Shown here: piece after piece, positions 1,250-22,311 of the stretch
How positions within the stretch are numbered: position 1 is the first letter of the stretch
How the letters are laid out: every line of letters begins with the position of its first letter
Virus record (IMG/VR): IMGVR_UViG_3300037493_005044
Span: 1-25,648 of that record
Source of the DNA: a virus
Strand: one strand, 5' to 3'
DNA length: 25,648 bases
Translations under genes and position numbers: made by a program
Notes under the pieces: model-generated
The model's input: only the letters and a program-made list of their open reading frames with translations
Told to the model about the DNA's origin: nothing
The model's database searches: none

Positions 1250-1259
1250 ACCCCCACTG
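1250..1259 (-). repeat. CAGTGGGGGT word, exact copy 1 (minus)
   Basis: Exact reverse-complement copy (ACCCCCACTG) in the terminase-portal gap. It forms an inverted pair with the copy at 1361, with 101 bases between them. Confidence 0.85.
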
Positions 1260-1360
1260 GCTCGCGGGGCGGACACGATGGTCACAGTTTCTGATGCTTG
1301 GATAGGAGTCCTCTGTCTCTCCTACTTCGGAAACGGCCCACGCCACCCCTCCGTCGGATT

Positions 1361-1370
1361 CAGTGGGGGT
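1361..1370 (+). repeat. CAGTGGGGGT word, exact copy 2 (plus)
   Basis: Exact copy in the terminase-portal gap, inverted partner of the copy at 1250. The transcript could pair the two words into a 10-bp stem enclosing the smaller inverted repeat at 1303-1324. Confidence 0.85.
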
Positions 1371-1491
1371 CTCGCTGAAACAGGGGGTCACGATCTTCCA
1401 TCACGGGAGACCGTGGCCAAGTATGCTCCCGTTAAAGAATCTGTACGCATGATCCCAGGTGGATACGCGGCTCGAAAGGCTCAGGCAAACA

Positions 1492-3528: not shown

Positions 3529-4455
3529 ATGGACCGAGATACGATGATCACGCTGGATGACGGAACCGAGGTCTCTTTGGGGGACCTGATCCAGAGTCGT
3601 ACAGATCTGAAGGATGTCCTGACCATCAACGAGGACTTGCAGAAGGACCTTGATGGGGTGGGCGTTCTGTTCCAAGAGGGTGTGACTTGGGAGGAGCGCG
3701 AAAGTGCCGTGCGCAAGGTCCTGGTGAACCTTGGGTACGAGAACGACCAAATCGATAGTTACCTTGAGGCTACCCGGCAAGCTTCTCAGCCCGTTGCTGA
3801 AGAGGAACCGGAAGCCGAAGAGAATTCCGCGTTCGAGATGTCAACCGACGACTACTCCGACGTTGAAGACGATGTAGACGATTCCAGTGGGGGTCAACAA
3901 GAGGACAACATGAGCGACGAACGAGAACAAATTTTGCGTGGCGAACTTGAGTCTCAGCGGGCCGAACTTCACCGGATGCGAGTTCGTGAACTTCGGGAAA
4001 ACCTGAACGCCAATCTTGATCGGGTTTTGAAATCAAATCCCGATTTTCAGAAGCTTATTGAGAGCGCCCGGCAGAACCGAGGCGAGGAAGGTGTGACTCA
4101 GGCGACCGCGACTCTCCGATCCCAATTGGAGCAACGGTCCCTGGAGCGCATGCAAGCTCGTCGCACGTCCGCCGGTAACTTCCAGGACTCTTGGATGTCC
4201 GAAGAAGTTGACAAGGCAGTTGAGCCCCTTATGGGCACCTTTCGGTCAGTAATCGGAGATATCGACCGGCTCGGTCGTTCTTCGGAAACAGTCACCGGAC
4301 TCGATGCGCAAGAGATTCTGCGCAGTAAGCCAGTGTCTGCACCTGAATGGACGCCCGGAGCCACCATCAGCGATATTGAATCGCAGGTCAAGAGCTTTGC
4401 AAGCGACTCCATTAAGAGGGCCCTGGCCGCATCTCCTGGTGATTCCGCAATCTGA
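3529..4455 (+). CDS. Scaffold protein (prohead assembly), acidic N-terminal half and coiled-coil C-terminal half
   Basis: A scaffold role is inferred from position immediately before the capsid gene, length (308 residues) and composition. Residues 1-90 form a small acidic region with no recognised fold or protease motif. Residues 92-127 are a Glu/Asp-rich linker that includes the repeated DNA word (SGG at 120-122). From Met128 the sequence becomes a charged coiled coil (REQILRGELESQRAELHRMR) continuing as helices to the end. The start codon directly follows the portal stop, with AAGGAA just upstream. A strong internal ribosome-binding site precedes Met128, so a second, shorter product of 181 residues is likely. 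No catalytic residues of a capsid maturation protease are visible. Confidence 0.65.
   Translation: MDRDTMITLDDGTEVSLGDLIQSRTDLKDVLTINEDLQKDLDGVGVLFQEGVTWEERESAVRKVLVNLGYENDQIDSYLEATRQASQPVAEEEPEAEENSAFEMSTDDYSDVEDDVDDSSGGQQEDNMSDEREQILRGELESQRAELHRMRVRELRENLNANLDRVLKSNPDFQKLIESARQNRGEEGVTQATATLRSQLEQRSLERMQARRTSAGNFQDSWMSEEVDKAVEPLMGTFRSVIGDIDRLGRSSETVTGLDAQEILRSKPVSAPEWTPGATISDIESQVKSFASDSIKRALAASPGDSAI
3885..3894 (+). repeat. CAGTGGGGGT word, exact copy 3 (plus)
   Basis: Exact copy in the acidic linker of the scaffold gene, read as Ser-Ser-Gly-Gly. It lies 15 bases before the probable internal start codon at 3910. Confidence 0.85.
3899..3912 (+). promoter_or_regulatory. Internal ribosome-binding site and nested in-frame start in the scaffold gene
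   Basis: AAGAGG (3899-3904) lies 5 bases before an in-frame ATG at 3910, at ideal spacing and stronger than the site of the full-length gene. Translation from here would give a 181-residue product holding only the coiled-coil half. Known phages such as lambda (C/Nu3) make a scaffold from a nested in-frame start; extension to this gene is inference. Confidence 0.5.
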
Positions 4456-4472
4456 CATAAAGGGGCTATATC

Positions 4473-6161
4473 ATGCCTTTCGCAACTACTGGTTCGATTT
4501 TCGACCGTCAATCTCCTCGTATTCAAGAAGTCCTCAACAAGTCCCTCAAGGTGTTCCTTGCGGGTCTCGATCCCGTGTGGCGTGACGCCGTTGTCACGAG
4601 TCAGGGCGTCGGTAATTCCGGTGACCTCGGCCGTGACCTCAAGATCACGAAGCTCTTCATGGGCAGCCTCACGGGTGTTATCGATCCGGGTCGCGCTTAC
4701 GCCGATCAGGATCTCTACGGCGATGCAACTGCTTATATGAGTGCGTCGATGCACACTCAGTCGGCAAGTCAGGCGTATCCGAGCCCTCTCGAGGGTCCGA
4801 ACGCCACGGCATTCCGTCTTGCAATCCCGATGCGTTCGCTCGTGACCAACTTGATGATCACCCTCGGTGAGAAGCAAGCTGACGCGACTCCGGCGCTGAT
4901 CGATCAGGTCATTGCTCCGAAGCTGACGGCGTTCGCCCGCAACATGGCGCACACCCTCTGCAACTACTGGTACCTGTCCCAGAACAGCTCCTACAAGCTC
5001 TGTGGTGTTACCGGCGTCACGGCGAGCACCATCGTGAACACTGCAACCACTGGTATTGTGAACACGACGATTGCGTTCCAGCCGGACAACTTTGCTTGCC
5101 ACCGCTTCTCTCGTGGCCAGCGCGTTGACTTTATTTACACCAGCGGTTTCCGGGCCAACGAAGCTGTCGGCGCCACTCTTGCTACTCAAAGGCGCACCAC
5201 ACGGTTCAACCTTGTGGTGGAGTCGGTTGATCCGCTGACCAACACGGTTGTGGTTGTTGTCCCTCAGGCGGCAATCATTGGGGCCATTGGTACTGGCTTC
5301 TTGGATAGCACAGGTGCCGCTATCAGTCCATCAACCAATGCTCAGGCAGCGACTTTGCTGAACACTTGTTCGGTTGTCTACGCCAATGCGACCATCGAGT
5401 CCGGGAACACGGCAGCGAATACGTTCACGGGTATCGCGGGTATCAACTCGTGGCTCAAGAACGGTAACGAGACCGGCGGAACTCGTCCGACCTCTCTGCT
5501 TGGTGCGGAGTCGGATGGCACGGACTTCATTGACGTGGCTGCTCGACCGGAGTTCAAGAGCTTCAAGTACGACGTGGCAGGTGGTGCGCTCACGGAGTAC
5601 AACATGAAGCGTTACCTCCAGCGCGTCCACTCGGCGTTCGAGCCGGCTGGCAACACCATCGACACGCTGATCGCGTCCGAGGGTGTGTGGAGTGCTTACG
5701 AGAGCCAGAAGATCGGTCAGTACCGTATCGACCGAACCAACAAGGTTGCGTCGATCACCAACGAAGGACTGCAAGAAGGCTTCACCTTCAGCTTCGAGGG
5801 CCATACCTACAAGGGAAGCACTTCGCGCTTTGTCGAAGGCGGAACCATGTATGGCATCAAGCTCGGTGGCAAGAACTGGAAGAAGTACATCCCGCCGAGC
5901 CCAGCTGGCTTGTCGAAGATGAGCCAGGCCGATGCCTACGTTCCGTTCGAGTTCGTGGCTGGCGCCATCACCGGCACCTCCACCAACCAGTTGCCGATCT
6001 ACCAGACCGGTGCCAGTGGTGGACCGAGCTTGGTGACTCAGGCCAGTCAGATGCCGGGCCGCATCCGCATGCAGCTCGTCCCTGATCAGCCGAACGGCAT
6101 GAAGCTCGTGAACATTGCTGAGGATCGTCTGTACATGGCGACCTCCGGCAATATCGCGTAA
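4473..6161 (+). CDS. Major capsid protein
   Basis: This is the putative main shell protein, 562 residues, which would adopt the HK97 fold common to tailed phages. It has a good ribosome-binding site (AAAGGGG, 4459-4465) and directly follows the scaffold gene. The N-terminal part is helical (RIQEVLNKSLKVFLAG). The C-terminal third carries a pattern typical of capsid proteins: TLIASEGVWSAYESQKIG, then QYRIDRTN, a beta-rich FSFEGHTYKGSTSRFVEGG and MYGIKLGGKNWKKYIPP. A Thr/Ala/Asn-rich segment (about residues 175-300) may be an inserted surface domain. A hairpin terminator begins 20 bases after the stop, as expected for the most abundant product. The gene has no copy of the repeated word. Family assignment is by position and pattern only. 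Confidence 0.75.
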   Translation: MPFATTGSIFDRQSPRIQEVLNKSLKVFLAGLDPVWRDAVVTSQGVGNSGDLGRDLKITKLFMGSLTGVIDPGRAYADQDLYGDATAYMSASMHTQSASQAYPSPLEGPNATAFRLAIPMRSLVTNLMITLGEKQADATPALIDQVIAPKLTAFARNMAHTLCNYWYLSQNSSYKLCGVTGVTASTIVNTATTGIVNTTIAFQPDNFACHRFSRGQRVDFIYTSGFRANEAVGATLATQRRTTRFNLVVESVDPLTNTVVVVVPQAAIIGAIGTGFLDSTGAAISPSTNAQAATLLNTCSVVYANATIESGNTAANTFTGIAGINSWLKNGNETGGTRPTSLLGAESDGTDFIDVAARPEFKSFKYDVAGGALTEYNMKRYLQRVHSAFEPAGNTIDTLIASEGVWSAYESQKIGQYRIDRTNKVASITNEGLQEGFTFSFEGHTYKGSTSRFVEGGTMYGIKLGGKNWKKYIPPSPAGLSKMSQADAYVPFEFVAGAITGTSTNQLPIYQTGASGGPSLVTQASQMPGRIRMQLVPDQPNGMKLVNIAEDRLYMATSGNIA

Positions 6162-6180
6162 GGTTCCAGCTGACGCTACA

Positions 6181-6217
6181 ATGGGGCCACCTCGTAAATG
6201 GGGTGGCCCTATTCTTT
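6181..6217 (+). terminator. Rho-independent terminator after the capsid gene
   Basis: GGGCCACC (6184-6191) pairs perfectly with GGTGGCCC (6202-6209). The stem extends inward through G-T and C-G pairs to a TAAA loop and outward through A-T pairs, followed by TTCTTT. The next ribosome-binding site (GGAG, 6218-6221) directly follows the T-tract, so some read-through or an unseen promoter must serve downstream genes. The right arm GGGTGGCCCT is identical to that of the terminator at 23312. Confidence 0.8.
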
Positions 6218-6225
6218 GGAGCATC

Positions 6226-6777: not shown

Positions 6778-6779
6778 CC

Positions 6780-7835
6780 ATGCATTCTTCAGGCTCAATT
6801 CTTAAGACCTACTGCGAGAAGGTTCGTCACTATCTGGACGACCCTGATCTCGACGCCAAGTATGACGATAACTATCTCGTGCGGTTCTTCCTGTCGAGCG
6901 CGATGACCGATGTGATCTCGCGCGTCTCACAGATGTCGGATGCCCAGGTCCTTTCGGCCTTCGAGATCACCGTTGTGGGTGGCACCAACACCTACAAGTT
7001 GCCGCCGGCTGTGGCTCAGGTGATCCGCATCGGAACCATCGAGAGCTCATCGGGTCTGTTCATGGAGGACCTGAAGCCGCGAAGCCAGTTCAATCCTGGG
7101 GGCCCCAACTGGTCCATCCAGGGGAACACCCTGGTGTTTCAGCCGGTGGTCAACGAGGATCGGACCCTGACGTTGATCTTCGTTCCGAGCGGAGACATGG
7201 TCTGTCATTACGAACCCACGGCCACGGGACAGATTGTCTCGAACGGCACATTCACGATGCCTTCGACCGTGACCCTGGGGTCGATGGACAAGCGTCCAAA
7301 TGCCTACATGGGTTCGTACCTGCGGATCTTTGGTTCAACCCTTACGGACGAGCTTCTGATCACGGATCACGATGCCGCTCTACGGATCCTCACGCCGAGC
7401 ACCGCATTCCAGAATGCCCTTGGCTTCTACTCGTATGAGATCGTTCCGTTCCTGCTGGAGCCAATGATCGATGCGATCTCCGTGAGCGCGGCCATGCGCG
7501 CGGGCGTAGGGCGCAAGATCAGTCAGGCCCACATGACCTCGCTGACCCTGGCCTACAAGCAAGCCGTGAAGACGGCGCACGACACGCTCGGGAACATGAA
7601 CGGCCGCCTCGGTAAACGCTTTGACGGCGCAACCATCGACAGCCGCCGGTCCTTCGTGAGCGCCTCATCGGGTGCATCCAATGGATCCAGTGGGGGTGGC
7701 ACCAGCGGATGCGACTGCAACGATGTGGCAAGTGAAACCACACAGCAGCAGATCATCATCACCTTGGATGCCCTGAACGCATCGTTGGTGGAGCTGAGCA
7801 TAGAGGGCGTCAATGGTCCGGTGTGGGGTCCCTAA
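6780..7835 (+). CDS. Putative head-tail adaptor protein
   Basis: This 351-residue protein is a candidate for the ring bridging portal and tail. The start at 6780 has GGGG upstream and lies 2 bases after the previous stop. Residues 1-50 are helical with a DDPDLDAKYDDNYLVRFFL pattern reminiscent of phage adaptor proteins, followed by beta-rich sequence (EITVVGGTNTYKLPPAVAQV) and a helical C-terminal block (MRAGVGRKISQAHMTSLTLA). After about residue 295 comes a Ser/Gly linker (SSGASNGSSGGGTSG) holding a copy of the repeated word, then a Gly-Cys-Asp-Cys tag and a helical tail. Gly-Cys-Asp-Cys recurs in the product of 10058-10828. The adaptor call rests on gene order and N-terminal pattern and is only moderately secure. 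Confidence 0.5.
   Translation: MHSSGSILKTYCEKVRHYLDDPDLDAKYDDNYLVRFFLSSAMTDVISRVSQMSDAQVLSAFEITVVGGTNTYKLPPAVAQVIRIGTIESSSGLFMEDLKPRSQFNPGGPNWSIQGNTLVFQPVVNEDRTLTLIFVPSGDMVCHYEPTATGQIVSNGTFTMPSTVTLGSMDKRPNAYMGSYLRIFGSTLTDELLITDHDAALRILTPSTAFQNALGFYSYEIVPFLLEPMIDAISVSAAMRAGVGRKISQAHMTSLTLAYKQAVKTAHDTLGNMNGRLGKRFDGATIDSRRSFVSASSGASNGSSGGGTSGCDCNDVASETTQQQIIITLDALNASLVELSIEGVNGPVWGP
7688..7697 (+). repeat. CAGTGGGGGT word, exact copy 4 (plus)
   Basis: Exact copy in the Ser/Gly linker near the adaptor C-terminus, read as Ser-Ser-Gly-Gly (SGG at 304-306). Confidence 0.85.
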
Positions 7836-8960
7836 ATGGCTTGCATTGCGTACCCATATGTTGCTGCCTCTCAGGACCTATGGCTGTATACGCCACGGGT
7901 CATCAATTGGACTGTGCCTTCAGCGGGTAGTGCGTCCATTGATTTCCCTTCGGCATGGAATCCAGGGTCTCCGCTTTATGGGTATCGCGGTTCTCTCCAG
8001 GGGATAACCATTCGTTGCCGTATTCAATCGGCTGATTCGTTGACATACTTGGGTGGGATGCTTTACGCCTACTACTCGACCTTTAATAATCCGGCGTTGC
8101 CTCAGAATAAATGGGCCTTCTACAACTCGTACCCGATGCCTGTTTACATGCTGGGTGCTAAGTTGGGATGGACCTGTGCGCACTGTGTCGCCTCGGGTGG
8201 TGTGGTGCAACGGGACCCCGCTTTGACGTGGGACAACGTGCATACCCCTGGGTCCTTGAACTACTACCTCCAGGTGTTTGAGTGGATGAACAAGAACAAC
8301 GTGATAGACAATGTTCGTTCACCGAGCCAGATGCTGAAGGGCTACAACAGAGATACCCCCACTGATCTGTATGCAGGTGACGATCTAATCATTGTGGAAT
8401 CTGTCACGCCTCTTACGGTTGAGCCCATACAGGTGGTGGATCTTAGGACTTTGAAGCCAGGGTCTACGGTGTGGGAACTTGACAGTGCCATGAAGATCAT
8501 TAGGCACAAGTTGGTGCTGGCGCCTGTTTATTCGCAAACTGGATTGACAAGCCAGGCTGTCCCTAATAGTCCGAGAGGGCATGTGGCGTTGCAAGCGGTT
8601 ACCCCGGATGGGTTAACCAATGTGCAGGTCAATCACTACCAGCATGACTCGGGCTCTGTTTTGTTTGCGGAGATCTCGCCACCCACGAGCGCCGCAGCAG
8701 GCGATGGAGTGCTGGGTCTTGTCCCGACACACATGTTTGGTGCCGGAGATTTCACTGGTGGAAACAAGCAGCTGTACTCGGAGTACACATCCTTTGGCCG
8801 GCTGGGTAGTGGTACTACTTTGCCCAAGATGATCAGCTATGCCGCGTCGAAGGGTGATTCCTTTGAGGCACAGCCTGCGAAGAGGCAGCACACGGACTTC
8901 GCGTTGCAAAGCACAATGGACACGATCCTGCAAAAATCGCTCGATATCCTTGGAATTTAA
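7836..8960 (+). CDS. Unknown structural protein, 374 residues
   Basis: I do not recognise this protein. The ATG directly abuts the preceding stop. It is aromatic and beta-rich, with a Tyr/Trp-rich first half (LGGMLYAYYSTFNN, WAFYNSYPMPVYMLG), one Cys-x-x-Cys pair (WTCAHC) and a Gly/Ser-rich C-terminal third. There is no signal peptide, membrane segment or obvious repeat. It lies between the adaptor and a fibre-like gene, so it is probably a virion component of the neck or tail. A minus-strand copy of the repeated word lies in its middle at 8355. Confidence 0.7.
   Translation: MACIAYPYVAASQDLWLYTPRVINWTVPSAGSASIDFPSAWNPGSPLYGYRGSLQGITIRCRIQSADSLTYLGGMLYAYYSTFNNPALPQNKWAFYNSYPMPVYMLGAKLGWTCAHCVASGGVVQRDPALTWDNVHTPGSLNYYLQVFEWMNKNNVIDNVRSPSQMLKGYNRDTPTDLYAGDDLIIVESVTPLTVEPIQVVDLRTLKPGSTVWELDSAMKIIRHKLVLAPVYSQTGLTSQAVPNSPRGHVALQAVTPDGLTNVQVNHYQHDSGSVLFAEISPPTSAAAGDGVLGLVPTHMFGAGDFTGGNKQLYSEYTSFGRLGSGTTLPKMISYAASKGDSFEAQPAKRQHTDFALQSTMDTILQKSLDILGI
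8355..8364 (-). repeat. CAGTGGGGGT word, exact copy 5 (minus)
   Basis: Exact reverse-complement copy inside the 374-residue gene, read as Thr-Pro-Thr-Asp on the coding strand. It has the longer form GATCAGTGGGGGT, shared with the copies at 15413 and 22027. Confidence 0.85.
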
Positions 8961-8963
8961 ATC

Positions 8964-10061
8964 ATGATTCTTACAGGCCCAGTCATCCCCCGCGCGTACA
9001 CGACCTTCAATGCAAGCTCGCCGACACCGACTCTTCTAAATCCCATCCCTTATGGAAGCGGTGAGATCATCACCTGCGTTAACACGGGTCGCATGTGGGT
9101 AGCCAAGGCAACGACTCCCGGCTACACCGGTGCGTGGGTCCCGCTGTCCCTCGAGTACGAAGTGATTGGTTTAAGCGGCACCACTACTTCAGGGGTGAAG
9201 AAGTACGTCTATGTCGCAGGCATTTTCAATCTTGCGGGTGTGGAGATTACGGGTTCCAAGACCGTCATCAACACCATCTCAAGCTTTTCACCTACTACTG
9301 GGCTTACTACGCAGGGTCTGACGGTCGGGGGTGGCACGGAAGCGGTGTACATAGCGACATCCAACACGATTGCCCCAAACCCGATTCACATTAACTCCTT
9401 GAAGGCTTCCATGTCCAATGCGGGATTTGGATCGGGGGTTCCAGCGGATGAGTATTGGCTGACTTGCCATGCTGGCAACGGCATTGAGCTCGCCGACGGC
9501 ACCTCGACCTACCGGGTCAACATGAAGGTGAACAAGACGGAGGCTCGTTGCTACCGTCCGTTCGTTGCAGAGGGTGGGATCACCGACACCACCAATACGT
9601 CTCGGTACCTGCTTGGTACTTCAGCCGCCGGCTTGGTTCAGGATCGAGGACTGACTTCCCAGCAGTCCTTCATCGGCGCCGATGTGACGCTCACAAACTT
9701 GGACACGACTTACGATGTGACAAGTCTGACTCTTGCGGCAGGAACTTGGAGCATCACGGGGCAGGCGAACTTCAAAACCAATACGGGTGTAGCAACAACT
9801 TACGCTCTTGTCTTAAGGAATAACACGGCAGGCACAGATTTGACAGCTGCTGTAGTCTTCAGTCCCGCAGCAGCCCTTAACAACGGGGTCTACGTTTCAT
9901 ACGTTGTTACGTTGAGTGTGTCGAGCGTAATTAAGTTGCAAGCACGGTCCAGTACTACTACAACTGCCAACGTTGTTAGTTATCAGGTTGCGGCGGGCGC
10001 AGGAGGTGCGATTGCTACTTACTCTAATGCGAGTGGGATTATGGCGGTGCGAATCGCATGA
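8964..10061 (+). CDS. Putative tail fibre or receptor-binding protein with C-terminal jelly-roll-like domain
   Basis: This 365-residue protein probably contacts the host surface. Residues 1-60 resemble a short attachment region. Residues 80-230 are Thr/Gly/Ser-rich beta sequence, including a fibre-like LLGTSAAGLVQD stretch. Residues about 236-365 contain LTLAAGTWSITG followed by alternating hydrophobic strands, the pattern seen in C1q/TNF-like jelly-roll domains at the ends of many phage fibres. The start is 3 bases after the previous stop with only a weak ribosome-binding site. The DNA for the C-terminal domain is visibly AT-richer than the rest of the gene, which suggests the receptor-binding module was exchanged. 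The fibre assignment is by pattern only. Confidence 0.55.
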   Translation: MILTGPVIPRAYTTFNASSPTPTLLNPIPYGSGEIITCVNTGRMWVAKATTPGYTGAWVPLSLEYEVIGLSGTTTSGVKKYVYVAGIFNLAGVEITGSKTVINTISSFSPTTGLTTQGLTVGGGTEAVYIATSNTIAPNPIHINSLKASMSNAGFGSGVPADEYWLTCHAGNGIELADGTSTYRVNMKVNKTEARCYRPFVAEGGITDTTNTSRYLLGTSAAGLVQDRGLTSQQSFIGADVTLTNLDTTYDVTSLTLAAGTWSITGQANFKTNTGVATTYALVLRNNTAGTDLTAAVVFSPAAALNNGVYVSYVVTLSVSSVIKLQARSSTTTTANVVSYQVAAGAGGAIATYSNASGIMAVRIA

Positions 10062-10828
10062 GTGGAGATCAGGAACAACTTGATGAGGCCAATAGGGAGT
10101 TCGAACTCCTGAGGTCCCGCTATTCGGATCCTTTCGCGAGGCGGATCCAGAAGAGCTTTCAGGTTACGACTGTCACGCCGGGTTTGCCTTTCGTGGGCCC
10201 GACCGCTTACAGCGCACCCGGCTCCGTACCGAACCAGACCGGACCCACTTCGGCTTCCAACATGTTCAACATGGGGAACAGTGGGGGTAACTCTATCTTC
10301 TTGGCGGTGATGAACAACCTTCCGCCGTCGGGGGTCTCGAATCCGGGTTCGACGCCGCCGGTGGGTCCCGAAGAGAAGTTGCGGTACTCGTGCTTGTCAG
10401 GCTTGTGCATCCAGAACCCCAACGGGGCGTACTTGGGGATCGAGGCTTGTCAGGAGGCCCAGTGTGTGGCTGATGCTACGGATGGCGGGTATGGCAACGG
10501 TTGCGACTGTGGGTACGGGCCCGCGCACACGGTGTTCAAGGCCACCATCCTCAGCTACACGACGACAGGGGTTGTTGCTGGTCGGAACTACTGGAACTAC
10601 ACTTGGTCGGAGGTTACGACCGGGGTACCTAGGACATCGACGGACTACGGGACAGCGATCAACACGTATGAGATCTCTGTGAACAATAACGGGGGTAACA
10701 CGGTACCTGTTACGGCAAGTCTTACTCGGCTACGAATTCTGGACGACACTATATTGCCGATGTACATTGACCTTGATGGTGTGCCTTGGTTCTTTGCTGA
10801 AAACCCTTTATCGGTGGTATGTGCATGA
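10058..10828 (+). CDS. Unknown structural protein with a short cysteine module
   Basis: This 256-residue protein overlaps the fibre gene by ATGA, implying coupled translation. Residues 1-35 are helical and charged, and 40-105 form a Pro/Gly/Ser linker containing a copy of the repeated word (SGG at 75-77). Residues 110-136 carry Tyr-x-Cys-x4-Cys followed by Asn-Gly and a Cys-x4-Cys pair (RYSCLSGLCIQN, EACQEAQC). I recognise this as a small cysteine module found in fibre-like proteins of environmental phages and bacteria. A Gly-Cys-Asp-Cys tag follows near 149, then a beta-rich C-terminal part. It is the first of three consecutive cysteine-rich products. A role as tail accessory or adhesin component is inference. 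Confidence 0.65.
   Translation: MSGDQEQLDEANREFELLRSRYSDPFARRIQKSFQVTTVTPGLPFVGPTAYSAPGSVPNQTGPTSASNMFNMGNSGGNSIFLAVMNNLPPSGVSNPGSTPPVGPEEKLRYSCLSGLCIQNPNGAYLGIEACQEAQCVADATDGGYGNGCDCGYGPAHTVFKATILSYTTTGVVAGRNYWNYTWSEVTTGVPRTSTDYGTAINTYEISVNNNGGNTVPVTASLTRLRILDDTILPMYIDLDGVPWFFAENPLSVVCA
10279..10288 (+). repeat. CAGTGGGGGT word, exact copy 6 (plus)
   Basis: Exact copy in the Pro/Gly/Ser linker of the 256-residue protein, read as Asn-Ser-Gly-Gly. Confidence 0.85.
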
Positions 10829-12075: not shown

Positions 12076-12473
12076 CTTGCTATTGGGACTTGGAAGGAAC
12101 GTGTAGGCATCCGCTCATCTCGGGGATTGCAACAAGCCCGGAGGTTTGTGGGGCCTGTAAGCACTTCATGAAACAGCCCGTGATGGGGGATGGGCCGCCA
12201 CCGCCGAGGCCGAATCTGGCGGAGCGGGCTGTAAGTTGGGTCAAGGCGGAGGCCAGCATGGTCTTGCAGGGGCCCCTTTCCGATGCTTCATATGAGGCCC
12301 GCATTGCGATTTGCAACGGTTGCGATGCCCTTGAGAAAGCGGTAGAGCCGGACAAGGTGGGGTTCTGCAAGGCCTGCGGTTGTGGACATAATGTGAGGGC
12401 TGAGCTGACGATCAAGGGCAGGATGCCAGCCGCTAAGTGCCCCCGGAACTTATGGCCTAAGGAGGCCAACTAG
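12072..12473 (+). CDS. Small zinc-ribbon-like protein
   Basis: This 133-residue protein starts at ATG 12072, overlapping the previous stop as ATGA; an upstream TTG at 12048 and ATG at 12060 are less likely. It has 10 cysteines. The N-terminal part has CYWDLEGTC followed by VCGAC. The C-terminal half has ICNGC, then FCKACGCGHN and AKCPRNLWP. That C-terminal spacing, Cys-x2-Cys ... Cys-x2-Cys-x-Cys ... Cys-Pro-x-x-x-Trp, is a pattern I recognise from small uncharacterised phage proteins and fits a metal-binding ribbon. The middle is helical. It ends 9 bases before the large nozzle-like gene and may act in tail assembly; function unknown. Confidence 0.7.
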   Translation: MTCYWDLEGTCRHPLISGIATSPEVCGACKHFMKQPVMGDGPPPPRPNLAERAVSWVKAEASMVLQGPLSDASYEARIAICNGCDALEKAVEPDKVGFCKACGCGHNVRAELTIKGRMPAAKCPRNLWPKEAN

Positions 12474-12482
12474 AGGTGAACC

Positions 12483-15400
12483 ATGGCTGATATGAAGAAC
12501 GACTGGTCGTATCCCGTGATGGAGACAACTCTGGATAAGCGACTTGAGCGGCCAGGGGTTCAGCGTGGGATGGCCAGTGAGATGACGGGTGTTGATGGAC
12601 GCAGCGAGAGCGGCTTGAAGCCGTTCCCTGGGTTCAGGTTGGCACACCGGTTGATCGAGCTACAGAATCAGCCGCGTCACAGCATTTATTCACAGGTCAT
12701 CGACTTGAAGGCGATTGACTTCCGAATTGGAAGCGAGCACTACGGCTATGGCTTTGTCTATCGGGCACTGAGAGACCCATCTGAGAGTCAGGTCGCCGAT
12801 GTGTACATCGACTACTGGAACTCCGTAACCCAGACTTGGACCTATTGCCATCAGATCACTCTTGCGACGGATATCGAGAAGCAATTCGATGTGGCCGTGG
12901 CCGGCAGGTTCATCTACTGCTTCATTGCAGGACGAAGCCCCGCGCTCTTCTACATTGATGCCACGCGCACAAAGGAGTATGTGGCAGAAGCCGACTCCTA
13001 CTTGGACTCGGTGAACCCGACCGTAAACTACGGGACGGCGCTGACTCTCCGTATGCAGAACACCGTTGAGTATGCGCTGATGCGTTTCAACACTTCGGCC
13101 GAGGTCGGAGGCATCGTGGAGTCCGCCTCACTGGACATCACGGTGTCGGGCAACACTCTGACTGCCTCGAACACGGTGACGGTCAAGTCCGTGTCTGACC
13201 CGACGACTACAGGTCAGCTGTGGGAGGAGGCTTCCACAACTTGGAACCTTCGCAAGACAGCCGTGAACTGGGGAACAGCTGGTGGTACCGTTGGAACGGT
13301 CTCGGCAATCAATACTGTGGGTGTTGGCTTTCTTGGGCGCTTGAGTTTCAACGTGCAAAACTTGGTGAGCCAGAGTTTGCTTACGCCCATTCAGACGTTC
13401 ACCAACAAGGTGGACCTTCGGCTTTCGGTGGCCGGCACAGGAGTGTTGAGTCTGGCAGCGCGCAATCAGGTCAATGCTTTGATTGTCCCCAAGTTGACTG
13501 TGACTTACACGAACAAGGTGTTCATCAATACGGTCACGATTGATGGAAATGGCGTTTTTCCGGGGCCGGGCAAGCAACCGAAGCTGAAGAGTCCGGAGCG
13601 CGGTACGTCGCTGGGATCCTTTACGACGTTACCCCCACTGAACTCGGCGGCAGGCCAGGTCGTGTTGGTTGAGCAAGAGCCTTACGCCAACACGGCAAAC
13701 TTCCCTGACACGGTCTCGGGTCTATGCAGTGGGGGTTCTTACAGCGATACGTTTCCTGCGCCACCGGCAGTGGTTATCCCAGGATCGCCGGAGGCTTATA
13801 CGCCTACGGGCGGTGTGTGTTCTGCGGCTCCCGATGGCATTACGTCGAACGGGCTGTTGATCCAGTTGGTGTCACCGGCGAACAAGCAGACGAATGTGTC
13901 GGCGACACCTCGGTTGGATTGGAGTGCGTACTACGAGGATGGCCGGGCACTGAGCGTCAGCATGATCTATGACGTGTTCTTGGTGCAGGATGGTCTTGAT
14001 CAGGTGGGTGATCGAGTGGTGGCTGCGAGTCTTCCGTATGGGACGACACACTTTGACCCTGCTTCGTTGTGGCCTACGGGCAAGCTTCCTTATGGGAAGA
14101 AGTTCCTGTGGAAGGTTTTGGCGAAGCGCCACGACTGCACCGACTTCTTTGTCATGAGCATGACGGGCACCTTTACGACGGAGAACCGTTATCAGGCTCG
14201 CAAGTTTGTGCCGGGTGATTACTCGTTCGGGTACACGATGGTGGACTCTAAGACGGGACGCAAGAGTGCGTTCAGTGAGGTGGCCCAGGTTCGTGGTGAG
14301 GACTTTGTGATTTCTCGGCAGCAGAACGGTGTGACAGTGAGCTCGAAGAGGGATCAGTACATCGGGATCGAGGTGCTTTATGACTCGCTCAAGTATGACC
14401 TGATGTATGTGTACCGGAGCGTCAAGATCCAGGATGCTGGTGGCACCATGATTGCCGGGCTCCCGTTCTTGGATGCCATCGTTCGGCTTACGGATTATCA
14501 GACTTGCTTAAATGGAACGGGTCGCACGTTTCCCCCAAATCAGCAGTTGCGTCACGCCATGTACTTCTATGAGCTGGAAGACAAGCAGCTTGTCTATCAG
14601 AGCCCGTATGTGGATCGCAGCGTGTTCGACGAGACCATGCCTTATGGCGGCACGGCTCACTTCTTCCAGAACACGATGATGACCTCGCGTGTGGAGCTAC
14701 CTAGTGTTTCGACGACGGATGAGGCGCGCGTCGATGACGCCAACCGTGGGCTGGGCGAGATGCGTTGGTCCAGCCTGATGGATTCGAGTCCGGAGTTGTT
14801 TCCACCGTTCAATCGGTACAACCCAACCGTGCCCAGCAATGAGGTTATTTGCTTCGCGAAGGCGGGTGGCAATCTGGTTGGCCTGTCGCGAGACAAGGTT
14901 TATCATTTGCGCAAGAGTGGCCCGTACATCAAGGTTACGGAGATGCACGAGGGCTACGGGATTGTGAACTCTAAGGCTGTGGACAGTGTTGGTAGTGCTG
15001 CATTCTTTGTCACCAGTCACGGTCTCAAGAGTGTGGACATGCAGGGCCAGCTGGATGAGATCCGGATCCTGAACAACGTGTTCGTTCGGGAGTGGGACAA
15101 CGATCTTACGAGCATTCAGGTGGCGCATGACCCGTTCATGAATGCGTTGTTCATTCACAACCCGGTGATGGAGGAGACCTACATCATGTGGTTCTCGACG
15201 GGCAAGACCACCAAGTTGGAGGACTCAAACTTTGACTTGATTAGTCACGGGTCGTGGCCTGTGAACTGGACGGGCGCTCAGTTCGGGAATGATCTGTGCC
15301 GTCGCACCTTCTTCTTGCAGAACTTCCAGGAGACGCGCGCGAGCGGCACGGGCTCGGACACGTTCTTGGGGCCAGCGATCTTCCTTGTGGATCAGGACGA

Positions 15401-16181
15401 CAGCAAGGTGATCAGTGGGGGTACCGCCAGTTGGAACGGTGCACGGCGTATCACCATGATGGACTTTGCCGGCGACAGTCGGTTCGTGGCTTCGGCTGCG
15501 TGGGCCAGTGGGGCGATCCCTGTGACTTCGGCTACGGGTACTGTGGTGGCGGCTGGTGCGTGGCGGTACGCCTATGTGTATCTGGTCAATTCGGTTACGA
15601 ACAAGCAGTACGTGGGCCGCAAGGCAAAGGTGATGTACAACACGAGCACGAGCGTGTTTGTGGACAGTGCTGTTTACCCGTGGGTCACGAACGTGGTGGC
15701 GGGTGACTTGTTTGTGGTGAGCCCGGTGGCGTTCGAGTGGGTTGGTCATCCGTTGGGGATGAGCAACGAGCAGGGCATGCTGTTCTCGAATGCGGATCTG
15801 TTCAGGATGAAGGTGGTCAGCAGTGTGGGTTCGGCGTTCACGGACGTCTCTGGACCCCCAATGACCGATACGGTGACGGCTTCGAACCCGTTGAACCGGT
15901 TCTCGGGTGTGCTGTACTCGGGTACGGCTGAGGACCCAATGGCGGTGGCTTTGACAAAGGATACGAATGGGGACCTATATGCTTCTGTGGAGGATGATGA
16001 AGGCTTGGTGTACGCTGCCTTTGGATCTGATGCTTCAGACGGGCGGTACGGAGCAAAAGGGACGTCGTTGAGTCCCGGCATCCGTATCCTGTGCGCCGAT
16101 CTTGATTACCGATTGCTAGGCTGTATTGTCCGTGGCAGCATCACGTCGGTCGAACGAACTACGAACATTCGAGGTAGCTGA
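12483..16181 (+). CDS. Large modular tail protein: DNRLRE-like and FnIII-like modules on a nozzle/propeller-like body
   Basis: This is a 1232-residue candidate tail nozzle or hub component. A strong ribosome-binding site (AGAGGTG) sits 5 bases before the start. Residues 1-160 begin a beta-structured body. Residues about 163-343 match the DNRLRE pattern (VAEADSYLDSVNPTVNYGTA, ALMRFN, TTWNL), known from bacterial surface proteins and probably carbohydrate or protein binding. A linker (345-455) carries an inverted pair of the repeated word. Residues about 455-568 resemble a fibronectin-III domain (SPANKQTNVSATPRLDWSA ... YGKKFLWKVLAK). From 570 come repeated beta blades (GNLVGLSRDKVYHLRK, NSKAVDSVGSAAFFVTSHG), as in propeller-like nozzle proteins of short-tailed phages. 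A third copy of the word codes for SGG at 978-980. Identity as nozzle is inferred from size, blade pattern and position before internal-protein genes. Confidence 0.6.
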   Translation: MADMKNDWSYPVMETTLDKRLERPGVQRGMASEMTGVDGRSESGLKPFPGFRLAHRLIELQNQPRHSIYSQVIDLKAIDFRIGSEHYGYGFVYRALRDPSESQVADVYIDYWNSVTQTWTYCHQITLATDIEKQFDVAVAGRFIYCFIAGRSPALFYIDATRTKEYVAEADSYLDSVNPTVNYGTALTLRMQNTVEYALMRFNTSAEVGGIVESASLDITVSGNTLTASNTVTVKSVSDPTTTGQLWEEASTTWNLRKTAVNWGTAGGTVGTVSAINTVGVGFLGRLSFNVQNLVSQSLLTPIQTFTNKVDLRLSVAGTGVLSLAARNQVNALIVPKLTVTYTNKVFINTVTIDGNGVFPGPGKQPKLKSPERGTSLGSFTTLPPLNSAAGQVVLVEQEPYANTANFPDTVSGLCSGGSYSDTFPAPPAVVIPGSPEAYTPTGGVCSAAPDGITSNGLLIQLVSPANKQTNVSATPRLDWSAYYEDGRALSVSMIYDVFLVQDGLDQVGDRVVAASLPYGTTHFDPASLWPTGKLPYGKKFLWKVLAKRHDCTDFFVMSMTGTFTTENRYQARKFVPGDYSFGYTMVDSKTGRKSAFSEVAQVRGEDFVISRQQNGVTVSSKRDQYIGIEVLYDSLKYDLMYVYRSVKIQDAGGTMIAGLPFLDAIVRLTDYQTCLNGTGRTFPPNQQLRHAMYFYELEDKQLVYQSPYVDRSVFDETMPYGGTAHFFQNTMMTSRVELPSVSTTDEARVDDANRGLGEMRWSSLMDSSPELFPPFNRYNPTVPSNEVICFAKAGGNLVGLSRDKVYHLRKSGPYIKVTEMHEGYGIVNSKAVDSVGSAAFFVTSHGLKSVDMQGQLDEIRILNNVFVREWDNDLTSIQVAHDPFMNALFIHNPVMEETYIMWFSTGKTTKLEDSNFDLISHGSWPVNWTGAQFGNDLCRRTFFLQNFQETRASGTGSDTFLGPAIFLVDQDDSKVISGGTASWNGARRITMMDFAGDSRFVASAAWASGAIPVTSATGTVVAAGAWRYAYVYLVNSVTNKQYVGRKAKVMYNTSTSVFVDSAVYPWVTNVVAGDLFVVSPVAFEWVGHPLGMSNEQGMLFSNADLFRMKVVSSVGSAFTDVSGPPMTDTVTASNPLNRFSGVLYSGTAEDPMAVALTKDTNGDLYASVEDDEGLVYAAFGSDASDGRYGAKGTSLSPGIRILCADLDYRLLGCIVRGSITSVERTTNIRGS
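13631..13640 (-). repeat. CAGTGGGGGT word, exact copy 7 (minus)
   Basis: Exact reverse-complement copy, read as part of Leu-Pro-Pro-Leu (residues 383-386), in the linker after the DNRLRE-like module. It forms an inverted pair with the copy at 13727, 86 bases apart. Confidence 0.85.
13727..13736 (+). repeat. CAGTGGGGGT word, exact copy 8 (plus)
   Basis: Exact copy read as Cys-Ser-Gly-Gly (415-418), just before the fibronectin-III-like module; inverted partner of the copy at 13631. Confidence 0.85.
15413..15422 (+). repeat. CAGTGGGGGT word, exact copy 9 (plus)
   Basis: Exact copy late in the large tail gene, read as Ile-Ser-Gly-Gly, in the longer form GATCAGTGGGGGT. The segment 15506-15515 matches the first eight bases only. 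Confidence 0.85.
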
Positions 16182-17467
16182 TGAGCCAGTCCCAAAGTCA
16201 AGATCCGTTGTCCAGCTTCTCTCAGTGGGGGATGCCCTTCAACCGTCGGCGCCAGAGCCCACGCCCCCCTTCGGCGCCCACTCAGGGCCCGCTGAGTCCG
16301 TATGGTCCCCCCACTGGTCAGGGTGGGCAGCAGGGCCAGCAGCAGGGGGTCCAGGCGGTGACCGGTCCGAACCGGGCGCAGATGTTCATGAACCCTTTCA
16401 GTGGGGGTCCGAACAATGCGGGTGTGCCGATGATGACGCCGCCGCAGCGGCAGTCGCAGGTGAGCCAGTTCGTTCCGAACCTGAGCGGGTACACGGCTCA
16501 GCAGCCGGGGCAGCAAATGAACATGGTGCCGCTGAGCATAATGGGGTCGCAGCTGAATCCACAGTTCTTGAACTGGGACCAGGCCTTGGCGGGTGCTATG
16601 GGTTACGACCTGAATAGCCAGCAGGGCGCGGCAAACGAGATGTACAACAACTTGGCTGCGCAGACGGGCCAGTATGAGCAGGCTCTTCAGGGCGGATTGC
16701 AGACGATGGGCAATGCGGCTGAGGGTGTGCGACAGGTTGGCAATGCGGAGGCGGACAGATTGTCGGCTGAGGCCAAGCAGGGCATTGACAAGTTCTATGG
16801 GTTTAGGGATGAGCAGCTGGGCAAGATGGATCAGGGGATCGCGAAGTCCAACAAGCAGATGGCGGACATGGTGTCGGGGTATGAGAAGGCGATGGGCGAG
16901 TTCAAGGACACCAGCGCGCAGGACTCGGCGAACGCGGCGTTCGGGTTACGGCGTGATGCCATGGCCCAGTCGCAGCAGATCGATCAGATGGATCTGAGTC
17001 CTGGGGAGAAGGCCGCTCTCAAGCAGCAGTTGATGGGCGATGTTGGTCAACAGGTGACTCAAGCGGTCACGGCCAACTTCAGCAATATGAACAACAAGGT
17101 GTCGGAGATGGAGCAAACTTTGGCGGGGTTCAGGGCGGCTGAGTCTCAGCAGACTATGACTGGGACACAGATGGGAACTCAGGCCGGGATTAGCTGGGGC
17201 GGGATGGGGCTGGATGCAGAGAAGACGCGCAATAACATGTCCTCGTTGAGCGCGCAGTTGCGCATGACGAGTGAGAGTGCCTATGCGAGTTCGATGCAGC
17301 AGTTGGTGATGACGGAGCTCAGTGGCCGCACTGCGATCACGGAGATGATCAAGGCGAACCCGAAGCAGTTCATGTCGCTGTTTGCAGGACTGACGGGTTT
17401 CATGGCTGCCGCGTCCACACCTGGAATCGAGAACATCAGCATCCCTAACTTTGGAGGCCAGGTATGA
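16181..17467 (+). CDS. Putative internal virion protein, Gln-rich and helical (428 residues)
   Basis: The gene overlaps the previous stop as TGATG, with GAGG upstream. Residues 1-110 are a disordered Pro/Gln/Gly stretch holding one exact and two one-mismatch copies of the repeated word. Residues 130-380 are long Gln/Ala/Met-rich helices typical of proteins stored inside the capsid and ejected with DNA (for example QKQ-like patterns NKQMADMVSGYEKAMGEFKD). A hydrophobic stretch, FMSLFAGLTGFMAAAS, near residue 395 could insert in a membrane. Position after the nozzle-like gene matches the order of T7-type phages, where internal core genes follow the tail tubular genes. No enzymatic motif is visible. 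Confidence 0.55.
   Translation: MSQSQSQDPLSSFSQWGMPFNRRRQSPRPPSAPTQGPLSPYGPPTGQGGQQGQQQGVQAVTGPNRAQMFMNPFSGGPNNAGVPMMTPPQRQSQVSQFVPNLSGYTAQQPGQQMNMVPLSIMGSQLNPQFLNWDQALAGAMGYDLNSQQGAANEMYNNLAAQTGQYEQALQGGLQTMGNAAEGVRQVGNAEADRLSAEAKQGIDKFYGFRDEQLGKMDQGIAKSNKQMADMVSGYEKAMGEFKDTSAQDSANAAFGLRRDAMAQSQQIDQMDLSPGEKAALKQQLMGDVGQQVTQAVTANFSNMNNKVSEMEQTLAGFRAAESQQTMTGTQMGTQAGISWGGMGLDAEKTRNNMSSLSAQLRMTSESAYASSMQQLVMTELSGRTAITEMIKANPKQFMSLFAGLTGFMAAASTPGIENISIPNFGGQV
16399..16408 (+). repeat. CAGTGGGGGT word, exact copy 10 (plus)
   Basis: Exact copy in the disordered N-terminal region of the 428-residue protein, read as Phe-Ser-Gly-Gly. One-mismatch copies lie at 16223-16232 (plus) and 16307-16316 (minus), the latter forming an inverted pair with this one, 82 bases apart. 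Confidence 0.85.
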
Positions 17468-19107: not shown

Positions 19108-21943
19108 GAAGAAGATAAAAGTTGATGCTGAGGGCTACCCCAAAAAGGACGAGGCCTCCGAGTTTCTTGCTTTGAAGCGGAAGACAAGAACAAGTGACGA
19201 GGTGCCAATCAAGCCTGACGCGGCTCGAATTGATGAACAGCGGCGGCTTCAAGAGGAAAAGCGCGCGGCAGATGATGCAAAGCGCGCGGCAGATAGGGCT
19301 GCCCAAGAAGCGCAGGACGCTATAGATGCACAAAGGGCGGAGGTAGTTTCTGCTGCGAATGCGGAGAAGGCAGCGGCGGCCAAGAAGATTGCTGACCGCG
19401 TTGAGATGCCACCTTTGGCGGCGGGGCAAGAGGCCAAGTATTACTACGTGCGTGGTACTTCCGTTAATGCGGACGGTGCTCCACACCGTGTGCGCGACGT
19501 CATCCGCGTCAATCTTCCGGATGCGGATGGCACCAACTTCAACCAGGAGTTTGATGACTTTGCTACCCGGAACAAGGTCAGTGTCAAAGACACGAAGAAC
19601 ATCTACTTCGAGCAGATCCCTGGCGATCCGATGGCTGGGGCTAAGACGGCTGTTAGTTCTAAGAGCTTAGCTGAAGTCTTTGAGGCAAACCGAAAAGAGG
19701 AATACAAAGCTTTTAGGAAGGGCTGGGAGGCAGAGAACAAGGGTAAGAATTTCTTTGAGGAGCAGAAGACTGGTCCCCTTGTGAATAAGAAGGGGGAAGG
19801 CATCCCTCGTAAATTGGAGACGCCTGTTGAGACAGCGCACTGGGCTTCGGTTGATCAGGCTAGACGGGAAGGAAAGAAGACGCCTCGTAAGGCGCAGAGT
19901 GCACGGCTTGAAGGGGCAGACATCAACGATGCCGCTGAAGAAGCGAAGAAGCTGGCCGCTCAACGAGAATCAAACGGTACTACCAGGTTCCTTAAATATG
20001 GAACGCGAGATCAAGCTGGCGTTTGGACCGCGACAGATCCTGCGGATCAGGCAGCCTTGGACAAGATCTTTAAGCAGCTCGATAAGGGAATGACGCCTGA
20101 GGCTAGGGCAGCGCATGTCTCTATGGTGCTACAGAAGTTTGGTCTGGGCGAAAATGACATGCAGTACCTCACGGAGGCAGAGAAGACTGCCTTTGACAGG
20201 GCTACTAGCAACTTGTCGAACGGAAATATTGAGGAGTCAGTAGAGAACCTTGCGAAGATTCCTCAAAGCCCTCGCGCTGCAACTGCGGTTGAAGCGGTAG
20301 CCGGGAAAGGGCGGACGGGGCCAGCTCGTCTTACTGAAGGTTGGCGAGATCCTCCTGAGCTCACGAGCCAGAAGGGGTGGGCCACAGCCAGTAAGGAAGA
20401 GCAGCAGCTTCGGCGCGTTGAACACCTGTTTGATACGGGTGTCTTTGACGGGCCAAACGATTTGCTTTCCGATCTTCCAGATAACAATAGTCACGTGTGG
20501 GAGTTCATTAAGAAGGACAAGAAGGCTCTTGCTTACTTGGAGCGCGTCGGCACCAATGCTGAACTAGCTTCTCACGCTGTCAATGGCGGTGACTTTGAGA
20601 AGCGGGTTCTTGAGCCCCTTCGCTATGCTTTGAGTAAGGCAGAAAGCGCTCCCTTTCAGACTGACGCAGCGGGTAAGGTGATCTTGCTGGGTTCGAGGTT
20701 GGGAAAGCTTCATGGTGCTCCTAACTTTGAGGCACTTGAGAAAGCGACTAAGGGTCTCTTTGATGGCAACGGCCTGAACCGTACTCAGTTTGATCTCACC
20801 AGCCAGTCGGCTCAGCTTTCGGCTAAGAAGAGGGACGCAGCAGGAGTAAGGCGCGCCACACTTCTCAACAAACTAGAAGGTAAGACTACGCTCAAGGCAG
20901 TTGACGCAAATGTTGCCGCACTGAGGAAGAAGCTTGAGACTCTCAGTACAAAATGGAACGCGAAGCTGAAGACTGGTGATGCAGCGGCAGGGCGAGAGAT
21001 GGCAGAAGTAAAAAGGTTGTTGAACATCAACCTTGAGAAGCGAAAGGTTCTTAGCGAGCAGGATATGAAGGGGCGCTTTGCCAATAAGGCCAACCTGACA
21101 GTCCAGGACACGGCGCGCACAGCTGAAGAGCGTCTTGCTTTGTTGGACAAACAGATTGCGGACATCAATAATAATCTTCACCCCACAAGGATGTACACGG
21201 ATCGCAAAACGGGAGCGGTGAAACGATCTAAGTTGAACGGGAAGAACCTGTTCGTCGAAGGTCAACCGAACTTGGCTCCACCTCCTGGAAGTCAACAAGA
21301 GAGAATGCTCAAGCGGGCTATGGCTGATCGAGCCACGATCCTAAAGCAGATCGGGGCACCAGCTGCAACTGGGGCGGCGGCCGTGGCGGAGACAGTGATG
21401 GAGAAGGGGCCGATCCCTATTGCCGGTGAGCCCGAACTGAGCAAGCTGGCAACCAAGGTTATCCCTATGGGACAAGAGGCCGAGCAGCGTCTCATGGCCG
21501 AAGGCTCCACCGCAACCCGTGCGGGCACCAAGGTTGTGCGTCCGGCTGCGCTCGGGGGTCCAGCAGGCAAGATGGGATTCATGGGCCATGCCGGCAAGTG
21601 GCTGGGTCCGCTGTTCGCCATCTACGGTGTCTACGAGACGCTGCACATGCTGCAAGACGGCACCATCGGAGACGCGGATCGCGAGCGACTGAAGACTCTC
21701 GAGGCCCTCGGATCAGTGGGGGGCGGCGTACAAGAGGACCTCGAACAACGTCGCACCATTCAGAATGCGTCACGCATGACGGACCTTGCCGCTATCGAGG
21801 GACAGCGCAACAAGGACAAGATGAACTCCCAGTTCTTGGACGATCAGGCCCTCAATGCTATGCTGCACGGACAGCAAGCTTCACTGGCCTCCATTGCCAG
21901 ACCTAGCCAACCGAGTATTGCTGAAATGATGTCGAGGATGTAA
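19100..21943 (+). CDS. Putative large internal virion protein, Lys/Ala-rich (947 residues)
   Basis: I chose ATG 19100 because AAGGAG (19086-19091) precedes it at good spacing; the open frame extends to 19046 but overlaps the upstream gene further. It overlaps the previous gene by 8 bases. Residues 45-105 form a Lys/Ala/Asp coiled coil with a tandem repeat (KRAADDAKRAADRAAQEA). Residues 115-260 are mixed alpha/beta; much of the rest is charged helix. A hydrophobic helix (WLGPLFAIYGVYETLHML, about 834-852) near the C-terminus could span a membrane. Most of the gene looks AT-richer than its neighbours, and the last 600 bases return to a GC-rich style. A one-mismatch copy of the repeated word lies at 21714. 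A role in the ejected core is inferred from size, helicity and context. Confidence 0.6.
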   Translation: MAKKKIKVDAEGYPKKDEASEFLALKRKTRTSDEVPIKPDAARIDEQRRLQEEKRAADDAKRAADRAAQEAQDAIDAQRAEVVSAANAEKAAAAKKIADRVEMPPLAAGQEAKYYYVRGTSVNADGAPHRVRDVIRVNLPDADGTNFNQEFDDFATRNKVSVKDTKNIYFEQIPGDPMAGAKTAVSSKSLAEVFEANRKEEYKAFRKGWEAENKGKNFFEEQKTGPLVNKKGEGIPRKLETPVETAHWASVDQARREGKKTPRKAQSARLEGADINDAAEEAKKLAAQRESNGTTRFLKYGTRDQAGVWTATDPADQAALDKIFKQLDKGMTPEARAAHVSMVLQKFGLGENDMQYLTEAEKTAFDRATSNLSNGNIEESVENLAKIPQSPRAATAVEAVAGKGRTGPARLTEGWRDPPELTSQKGWATASKEEQQLRRVEHLFDTGVFDGPNDLLSDLPDNNSHVWEFIKKDKKALAYLERVGTNAELASHAVNGGDFEKRVLEPLRYALSKAESAPFQTDAAGKVILLGSRLGKLHGAPNFEALEKATKGLFDGNGLNRTQFDLTSQSAQLSAKKRDAAGVRRATLLNKLEGKTTLKAVDANVAALRKKLETLSTKWNAKLKTGDAAAGREMAEVKRLLNINLEKRKVLSEQDMKGRFANKANLTVQDTARTAEERLALLDKQIADINNNLHPTRMYTDRKTGAVKRSKLNGKNLFVEGQPNLAPPPGSQQERMLKRAMADRATILKQIGAPAATGAAAVAETVMEKGPIPIAGEPELSKLATKVIPMGQEAEQRLMAEGSTATRAGTKVVRPAALGGPAGKMGFMGHAGKWLGPLFAIYGVYETLHMLQDGTIGDADRERLKTLEALGSVGGGVQEDLEQRRTIQNASRMTDLAAIEGQRNKDKMNSQFLDDQALNAMLHGQQASLASIARPSQPSIAEMMSRM

Positions 21944-22311
21944 TGGTAAAGATCGAGGACGTGAAGGCTATCTCGCACGAAGTCGTTGCATCCCATAATG
22001 CACGTGGCTTCGCTATCGTCAGCCTAACCCCCACTGATCAGATTCCAGTGGGGGTCCTCTTGAATGTGACGAAGGATCCTTGGGTGAAGGAGGGTCCTGA
22101 GTTGAGGGCGAAGGCGGATGTGAGGACGTTCTTGTGGGCGCAGAGCCAGGGTGCTGGGTTGCGGAGGCAGGAGCGGAGTTGCGTGTGGAGCCGGTATGTG
22201 AAGGAAGAGAACCGGAGTGTGATGGGGATTGCGACCGTTGTGAGTCGCGGTGTTGCGGAAAGAATGACCAAGTTGAATGACGGGTACCAATGGATTGAGG
22301 TTGGAACATGA
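21943..22311 (+). CDS. Small unknown protein (122 residues) with an internal hairpin in its DNA
   Basis: The gene starts in a TAATG overlap with the previous stop and is preceded by GAGG. The product is basic and mixed alpha/beta (AISHEVVASHNARGFAIVSL, then FLWAQSQGAGLRR and SRYVKEENRSVMGIATVV). I do not recognise it; it has no membrane segment or known motif. Codons 29-38 are formed by a perfect inverted pair of the repeated word, read as Leu-Thr-Pro-Thr ... Pro-Val-Gly-Val. It lies among internal virion genes and may be a small virion or assembly factor. Confidence 0.65.
   Translation: MVKIEDVKAISHEVVASHNARGFAIVSLTPTDQIPVGVLLNVTKDPWVKEGPELRAKADVRTFLWAQSQGAGLRRQERSCVWSRYVKEENRSVMGIATVVSRGVAERMTKLNDGYQWIEVGT
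22027..22036 (-). repeat. CAGTGGGGGT word, exact copy 11 (minus), left arm of a perfect hairpin
   Basis: Exact reverse-complement copy. With the copy at 22046 it forms a perfect 10-bp stem with a 9-base loop. It has the longer form GATCAGTGGGGGT on the minus strand. Confidence 0.9.
22046..22055 (+). repeat. CAGTGGGGGT word, exact copy 12 (plus), right arm of a perfect hairpin
   Basis: Exact copy and inverted partner of 22027. CCTCTTG follows the stem, so a weak terminator or attenuator activity is possible. This is the only plus copy inside a well-supported gene that is not read in the Ser-Gly-Gly frame. Confidence 0.9.

Follow-up and report, generated by a model that had tools for sequence, protein, structure and literature searches.

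The 25,648-base stretch of viral DNA analyzed here (IMG/VR record IMGVR_UViG_3300037493_005044; hereafter the window) is the whole of that virus record, at whose left end a terminase gene is cut by the contig start, and is a fragment of a lytic-looking phage of about 50-54 kb. It carries 12 exact copies of the 10-base word CAGTGGGGGT, distributed over both strands. This word is a selected DNA signal, which is phage-specific, independent of transcription and found in clade-specific variants. We infer that a phage protein recognizes it and that it probably serves the handling of phage DNA rather than transcription. Tentatively, we favor its being the binding site of a phage-encoded factor, likeliest a polar Chi-like mark for the phage's own replication and recombination machinery.

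All 12 copies reported by a preceding sequence-only reading of the window are found at the claimed coordinate and strand, two of them intergenic (1250- and 1361+) and 10 within genes. The five one-mismatch copies that it listed are also real, the list being short by one, CAGTGTGGGT at 15821(+). Its assignment of the surroundings to a structural region is borne out by the terminase, portal and capsid-side genes, all of which lie on the plus strand. The copies and variants are:

1250..1259, minus strand: word copy, intergenic in the terminase/portal gap; left member of a divergent pair with a spacing of 110 bp
1361..1370, plus strand: word copy, intergenic in the same gap; right half of the pair with 1250
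3885..3894, plus strand: word copy within a scaffold-like gene between the portal and capsid genes
7688..7697, plus strand: word copy in gene 6780-7835
8355..8364, minus strand: word copy in gene 7836-8960
10279..10288, plus strand: word copy in gene 10058-10828
13631..13640, minus strand: word copy in gene 12483-16181; divergent pair partner of 13727
13727..13736, plus strand: word copy in gene 12483-16181; pair partner of 13631
15413..15422, plus strand: word copy in gene 12483-16181; orthologous site in G001, G004, G011 and G016
15821..15830, plus strand: one-mismatch copy CAGTGTGGGT
16223..16232, plus strand: variant CAGTGGGGGA, core CAGTGGGGG intact
16307..16316, minus strand: variant CAGTGGGGGG, core intact; divergent pair partner of 16399
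16399..16408, plus strand: word copy in gene 16181-17467; pair partner of 16307
21714..21723, plus strand: variant CAGTGGGGGG, core intact
22027..22036, minus strand: word copy, left half of a 19-bp divergent pair in gene 21943-22311; the pair is conserved in group I (see below)
22046..22055, plus strand: word copy, right half of the 19-bp pair with 22027

The chance expectation for CAGTGGGGGT in the window is 0.04 copies, with a maximum of 1 in any single dinucleotide-preserving shuffle, and an order-5 Markov model, which still has the word itself inside it, predicts 0.65. Shuffling of synonymous codons leaves 2.1 copies, two of these being the intergenic ones that lie beyond the reach of the shuffle. 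Chance and base composition are thereby ruled out as the cause of the word. Relatives of up to 55 kb, gathered from viral contigs via their portal and capsid proteins and read whole, form three groups (I-III). In every close relative examined (GC 47-67%) the top over-represented word is CAGTGGGGG followed by either T (CAGTGGGGGT) or G (CAGTGGGGGG), with up to 35 core copies per genome, about 140-fold over expectation. The core word occurs 313 times in group I against 2.25 expected, and 99 times in group III against 2.3, dispelling the possibility that near-complete genomes would hold no more copies than a Markov model predicts. Its density in the family amounts to one per ~1.5-2.5 kb, with both strands used (about 0.5-0.7 per kb).

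The extended form of the word is [A/T][T/C]CAGTGGGGG[T/G]; the conserved block spans ~10-13 bp and the flanks outside it carry no signal. The type ending in G (CAGTGGGGGG) is found in four genomes belonging to two lineages of the capsid tree, and this T-to-G change of the last base is concerted, having occurred in two separate clades, and is also seen at orthologous sites. For instance, the 3885 site is retained in 17 of 18 relatives, where its last base is T except for an A in one genome and a G in each of the four genomes of the CAGTGGGGGG type. More distant members of the family use shifted words, namely GAGTGGGGG (in genomes of GC 41-44%), AGCGGGGAA, CTAGTGGGGAA, CGTGGGGGGAC and AGTGGGGGGA, and all clade words retain a G[T/C]GGGG core. 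Individual sites turn over rapidly, 62 of the 100 site clusters occurring in a single genome, and therefore their number and spacing seem to be weightier than their exact place.

Comparison of orthologous genes shows that selection keeps the word even where it lies within genes. Codon-aligned copies are intact in the other genome in 48% of comparisons, as opposed to 13% for nearby windows in the same frame; where the amino acid is kept, synonymous codons inside the word are unchanged in 72% of cases against 41% for the same codons elsewhere, and the AGT serine codon in 86% against 20%, the genome pairs being non-independent and these percentages hence effect sizes rather than P-values. Copies are thus conserved, not randomized, at synonymous positions in relatives, and the sequence-only reading was correct in that the word is not kept as a peptide: its presence on both strands and in several frames, its synonymous conservation and its lack of any link to gene direction indicate that it is kept as DNA, and the same features rule out a peptide cause. 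An RNA element or terminator hairpin is rejected, too, because the copies do not prefer the gene strand, nor are convergent pairs favored, although they would make an equally good hairpin. Purifying selection at synonymous positions and concerted change of the word between clades, by which a dispersed protein-binding signal of a phage can be recognized, are both seen here.

The placement of the word is indifferent to genes and ordered along each strand. In group I, 156 copies run in the same direction as the gene and 141 in the opposite one; 297 of 384 copies (~77%) lie within genes and 85 are intergenic, the last count being partly inflated by a simple gene caller that misses genes. The strand of the structural genes is favored in both arms of the genome (205 vs 108 in group I; 76 vs 23 in group III), and in the arm with minus-strand genes most copies are antisense. 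On a given strand the copies are evenly spaced, the coefficient of variation of same-strand gaps in group I being 0.61 as opposed to 0.94 for random placement, with 35 gaps under 1 kb where 61 are expected. In group III the value is 0.72, and the best genomes of group II reach 0.44-0.57; the result is not significant in some individual genomes.

Close pairs are mostly divergent, i.e. minus followed by plus, as exemplified in the window by 1250/1361, 13631/13727 and 22027/22046. A divergent pair of the 1250/1361 type, 110 bp apart, recurs in 9 of the 15 group I genomes tested, and when each type and distance is counted once, groups I and II together have 26 divergent and 6 convergent pairs within 250 bp; in group III divergent pairs are not preferred. 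A search of every viral contig for pairs spaced by 15-45 bp recovered 16 divergent and 6 convergent stretches and adds little, as the former are mainly one conserved locus and six unrelated contigs and the latter one PolA locus. In those six contigs (L235, L236, L238, L240, L246 and L249) the word forms a short inverted repeat; they match the family in nothing else and have no dispersed copies, and the repeats look like ordinary hairpins.

One divergent member of the family is split over three contigs (C7, C18 and C72; L229-L232) of a 3.6-Mb Myxococcales metagenome-assembled genome (MAG; G036), which hold different parts of one gene set. This bacterium is likely, judging from binning, though not proven, to be the phage host. 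Of the 21 copies of AGTGGGGGGA in the MAG, 19 are on the phage contigs (48.6 kb) and 2 in the remaining ~3.55 Mb, and the 8-base core AGTGGGGG occurs 65 times over the whole MAG, not enriched over its reversed control (79). Over-representation in the host genome, which had been raised as a possibility, is therefore not seen outside the phage contigs in this one MAG with its unproven host. In practical terms, the word provides a simple tag for members of this uncultured family, its density alone having picked the three MAG contigs of one phage.

The disregard of the word for genes, its even distribution along either strand and its polarity suggest a probable role in DNA processing. In the best-studied relative (G001; 54 kb) the structural arm runs rightward and the replication arm leftward, the latter encoding PolA, an SF3-type helicase (DUF5906), Sak4, a PD-(D/E)XK exonuclease, an SSB-like protein and an ERCC4 nuclease. 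Under the favored reading, a sequence-specific DNA-binding protein encoded by the phage family would recognize the word, and the two would change together between clades, while many interchangeable copies would be kept at even intervals on each strand. The mark might be read by the machinery comprising the SF3-type helicase, PolA, the exonuclease, the Sak4 annealase and SSB, such that an enzyme moving along phage DNA would respond if it reached a site from one side. In this way a mark would always be met before resection, re-priming or strand exchange had gone far, and divergent pairs, with their G-runs outward, would show the active face to enzymes arriving from both directions. Among the roles floated by the sequence-only reading, a Chi-like mark, though one for the phage's machinery, or a dispersed protein-binding site fits best. 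A host Chi site, considered below, is disfavored, a module-boundary site is not supported by the breakpoint result given next, and a single packaging signal is at odds with 20-35 evenly spread copies. Its remark that no named phage element has this sequence holds for our literature search, in which the 20 papers listed, out of 129 containing the word's letters, were all unrelated.

Several points weigh against a Chi-like mark. The literature search found no phage-encoded Chi-type system, no RecBCD- or AddAB-like helicase-nuclease is present among the phage genes scanned, and the over-representation of Chi in lambdoid phages is 2-3-fold (PMC3784561), far below that of this word. The strand bias of group I is largely accounted for by GC skew (0.655 observed, 0.60 expected), which does not explain that of group III. 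A test of protein distances against word distances singled out no reader candidate, including the two helix-turn-helix (HTH) proteins discussed below. Finally, 88 exchange breakpoints between genomes lie at a median of 720 bp from the sites compared to 566 bp for random positions; this rejects site-specific crossover and not a Chi-like signal, which need not place breakpoints at its sites. The more specific proposal of a complete phage-owned Chi-like system, in which a phage reader and the evenly spaced, both-strand word would co-evolve and control exonuclease/Sak4 recombination or replication, is to be regarded as doubtful. If true, it would be the first Chi-type punctuation, within the literature searched, that a virus possesses as its own instead of using that of its host.

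The foremost rival, which we consider rather unlikely, is that the copies are dispersed sites for a phage DNA-organizing, segregation or packaging protein akin to RacA, MatP or the reader of KOPS. The natural candidate is a 147-aa winged-helix protein, present in most genomes of each of the three groups, whose gene precedes that of the terminase by a few genes. Its AlphaFold model combines a winged HTH (predicted local distance difference test score about 90) with a long helix at the C terminus. Even spacing and independence from transcription fit such a role. The fold of the protein very weakly resembles that in a RacA-DNA structure, but this match is not significant (E about 1), and the distances of the protein do not track the differences in the word. 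A second candidate reader of ~115 aa, encoded between the exonuclease and Sak4 genes, is modeled as an HTH with a disordered tail; a fold search of the PDB gave no significant match for either HTH model. Among the genes common to both T-to-G lineages none groups them, the sampled regions barely overlapping. A 96-aa protein beside PolA (L117:6071-6361 in G001) looks like two tandem HTH units and is confined to groups I and II; its absence from group III discounts it as the reader, a group-specific reader still being conceivable.

Recognition by a phage nickase that would interrupt single strands of the virion DNA, as happens in T5, the phiKMV-like phages and Pseudomonas phage tf, is an unlikely explanation. 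The layout in tf is the closest on record: its 46 kb are nicked at 14 places with a 9-base consensus, and relatives of tf have a one-base variant of that consensus at similar map positions (PMC3517423); furthermore, most members of the present family have an ERCC4-type nuclease gene. However, known nick sites are on one strand only, whereas here both are used at about 2:1, and nicks at both members of the favored divergent pairs, as close as 16-110 bp, would cause a double-strand break. The genes scanned yielded no DNA ligase. Quite improbable, too, is the use of the copies by a phage primase or replication initiator as priming signals for the lagging strand. The use of both strands, a strand bias that ignores genes and an even per-strand spacing at Okazaki-like intervals of about 2-5 kb would agree with it, but no primase domain was found, the helicase matching only the C-terminal part of primase families, and known primases recognize about three bases.

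A Chi site of host RecBCD, AddAB or AdnAB, kept by the phage for protection, is very unlikely. Known Chi sites are indeed G-rich, asymmetric and strand-biased, and lambdoid phages without recombinases enrich Chi (PMC3784561). Against this, the phages studied here carry their own Sak4/exonuclease module, and host Chi is disfavored because the word is phage-specific in the one testable MAG. Stoperators, i.e. repressor sites that stop transcription, are the least credible of these explanations: they are comparable in copy number (20-30 in about 50 kb), asymmetric and present in clade-specific variants (PMC6550527), yet they follow the direction of transcription and mostly occupy short intergenic gaps, and the genes scanned, which do include HTH proteins, gave no match to an integrase, repressor or lysogeny family. 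A start-associated sequence is dismissed, as the copies are mostly within genes and on both strands rather than just upstream of start codons.

The phage collection has no cultured relative of the portal, terminase or capsid protein, and we therefore take the source to be an uncultured phage family. The corresponding genes in the window are:

23..1180, plus strand: terminase large subunit (phrog_38, 1.3e-24), cut by the contig start
1492..3528, plus strand: portal-like protein, named by its place between the terminase and capsid genes, with no family match
4473..6161, plus strand: major-capsid-like protein, named by position, with no family match; used for the family tree

Across the family, with gaps reflecting incomplete records, recur the helicase, the 147-aa protein, terminase, SSB, Sak4, the ~115-aa HTH protein, the exonuclease and PolA, and of these the genes for the exonuclease, HTH protein, Sak4 and SSB are found alongside the word throughout. 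No tRNA genes, which were sought as a clue to the host, were found. The structural region of the window also has a cysteine-rich 418-aa open reading frame (10819-12075) with no family match and a 141-aa one with CxxC motifs (12048-12473), whose weak DUF6171 match is below the cut-off. The 1232-aa protein encoded at 12483-16181 has a carbohydrate-binding module, CBM96, at residues 164-257 and is probably a tail or receptor-binding protein. In G001, a 299-aa protein (L117:3149-4048) has the N-terminal domain of the major tropism determinant Mtd, and an 84-aa basic protein (L115:6570-6824), with PHROG matches only to entries of unknown function, is more conserved than the terminase (78-96% identity among complete copies within group I and 68-83% in group III). 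The contig ends of G002, G021 and G024 bear terminal repeats of 99, 127 and 127 bases, respectively, possibly reflecting assembly circularity.

Finally, the word can be set against known dispersed signals. The chromosome marks of the KOPS, matS and RacA type are likewise dispersed and read by an organizing or motor protein, as the foremost rival would have it for this word; they differ in sequence and reader, the present word being phage-borne and having candidate readers. The known dispersed motifs of phages are mostly tied to transcription or translation, and this word is tied to neither. Thus, the motifs of Cluster K (start-associated sequences; PMC3203893) and Cluster EC (18 bp; PMC7302621) are also repeated, asymmetric and conserved within their clusters, but occur immediately before start codons and in a single orientation. 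The stoperators of Cluster A mycobacteriophages (PMC9283540, PMC6550527) resemble it in having 20-30 asymmetric sites per genome with variants that track relatedness, and differ in being mostly intergenic and transcription-following. The nick sites of tf, the phiKMV-like phages and T5 (PMC3517423) share a word of about 9 bases dispersed in genes, with one-base variants at similar map positions, and lack the use of both strands and the close divergent pairs. Chi of RecBCD and AddAB (lambdoid enrichment, PMC3784561) offers the same combination of a short, G-rich, asymmetric word with many interchangeable copies in genes, which occupy both strands but are biased to one, irrespective of transcription. 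Unlike Chi, this word is phage-specific, varies between phage clades, is evenly spaced, forms divergent pairs and is far more prevalent (about 140-fold over-represented vs 2-3-fold; about 0.5-0.7 per kb vs 0.2). Lying in genes and evenly spaced on each strand, it marks phage DNA almost uniquely, and its clade-specific forms are natural variants with which to find the reader and test the viral ownership of a Chi-type signal.

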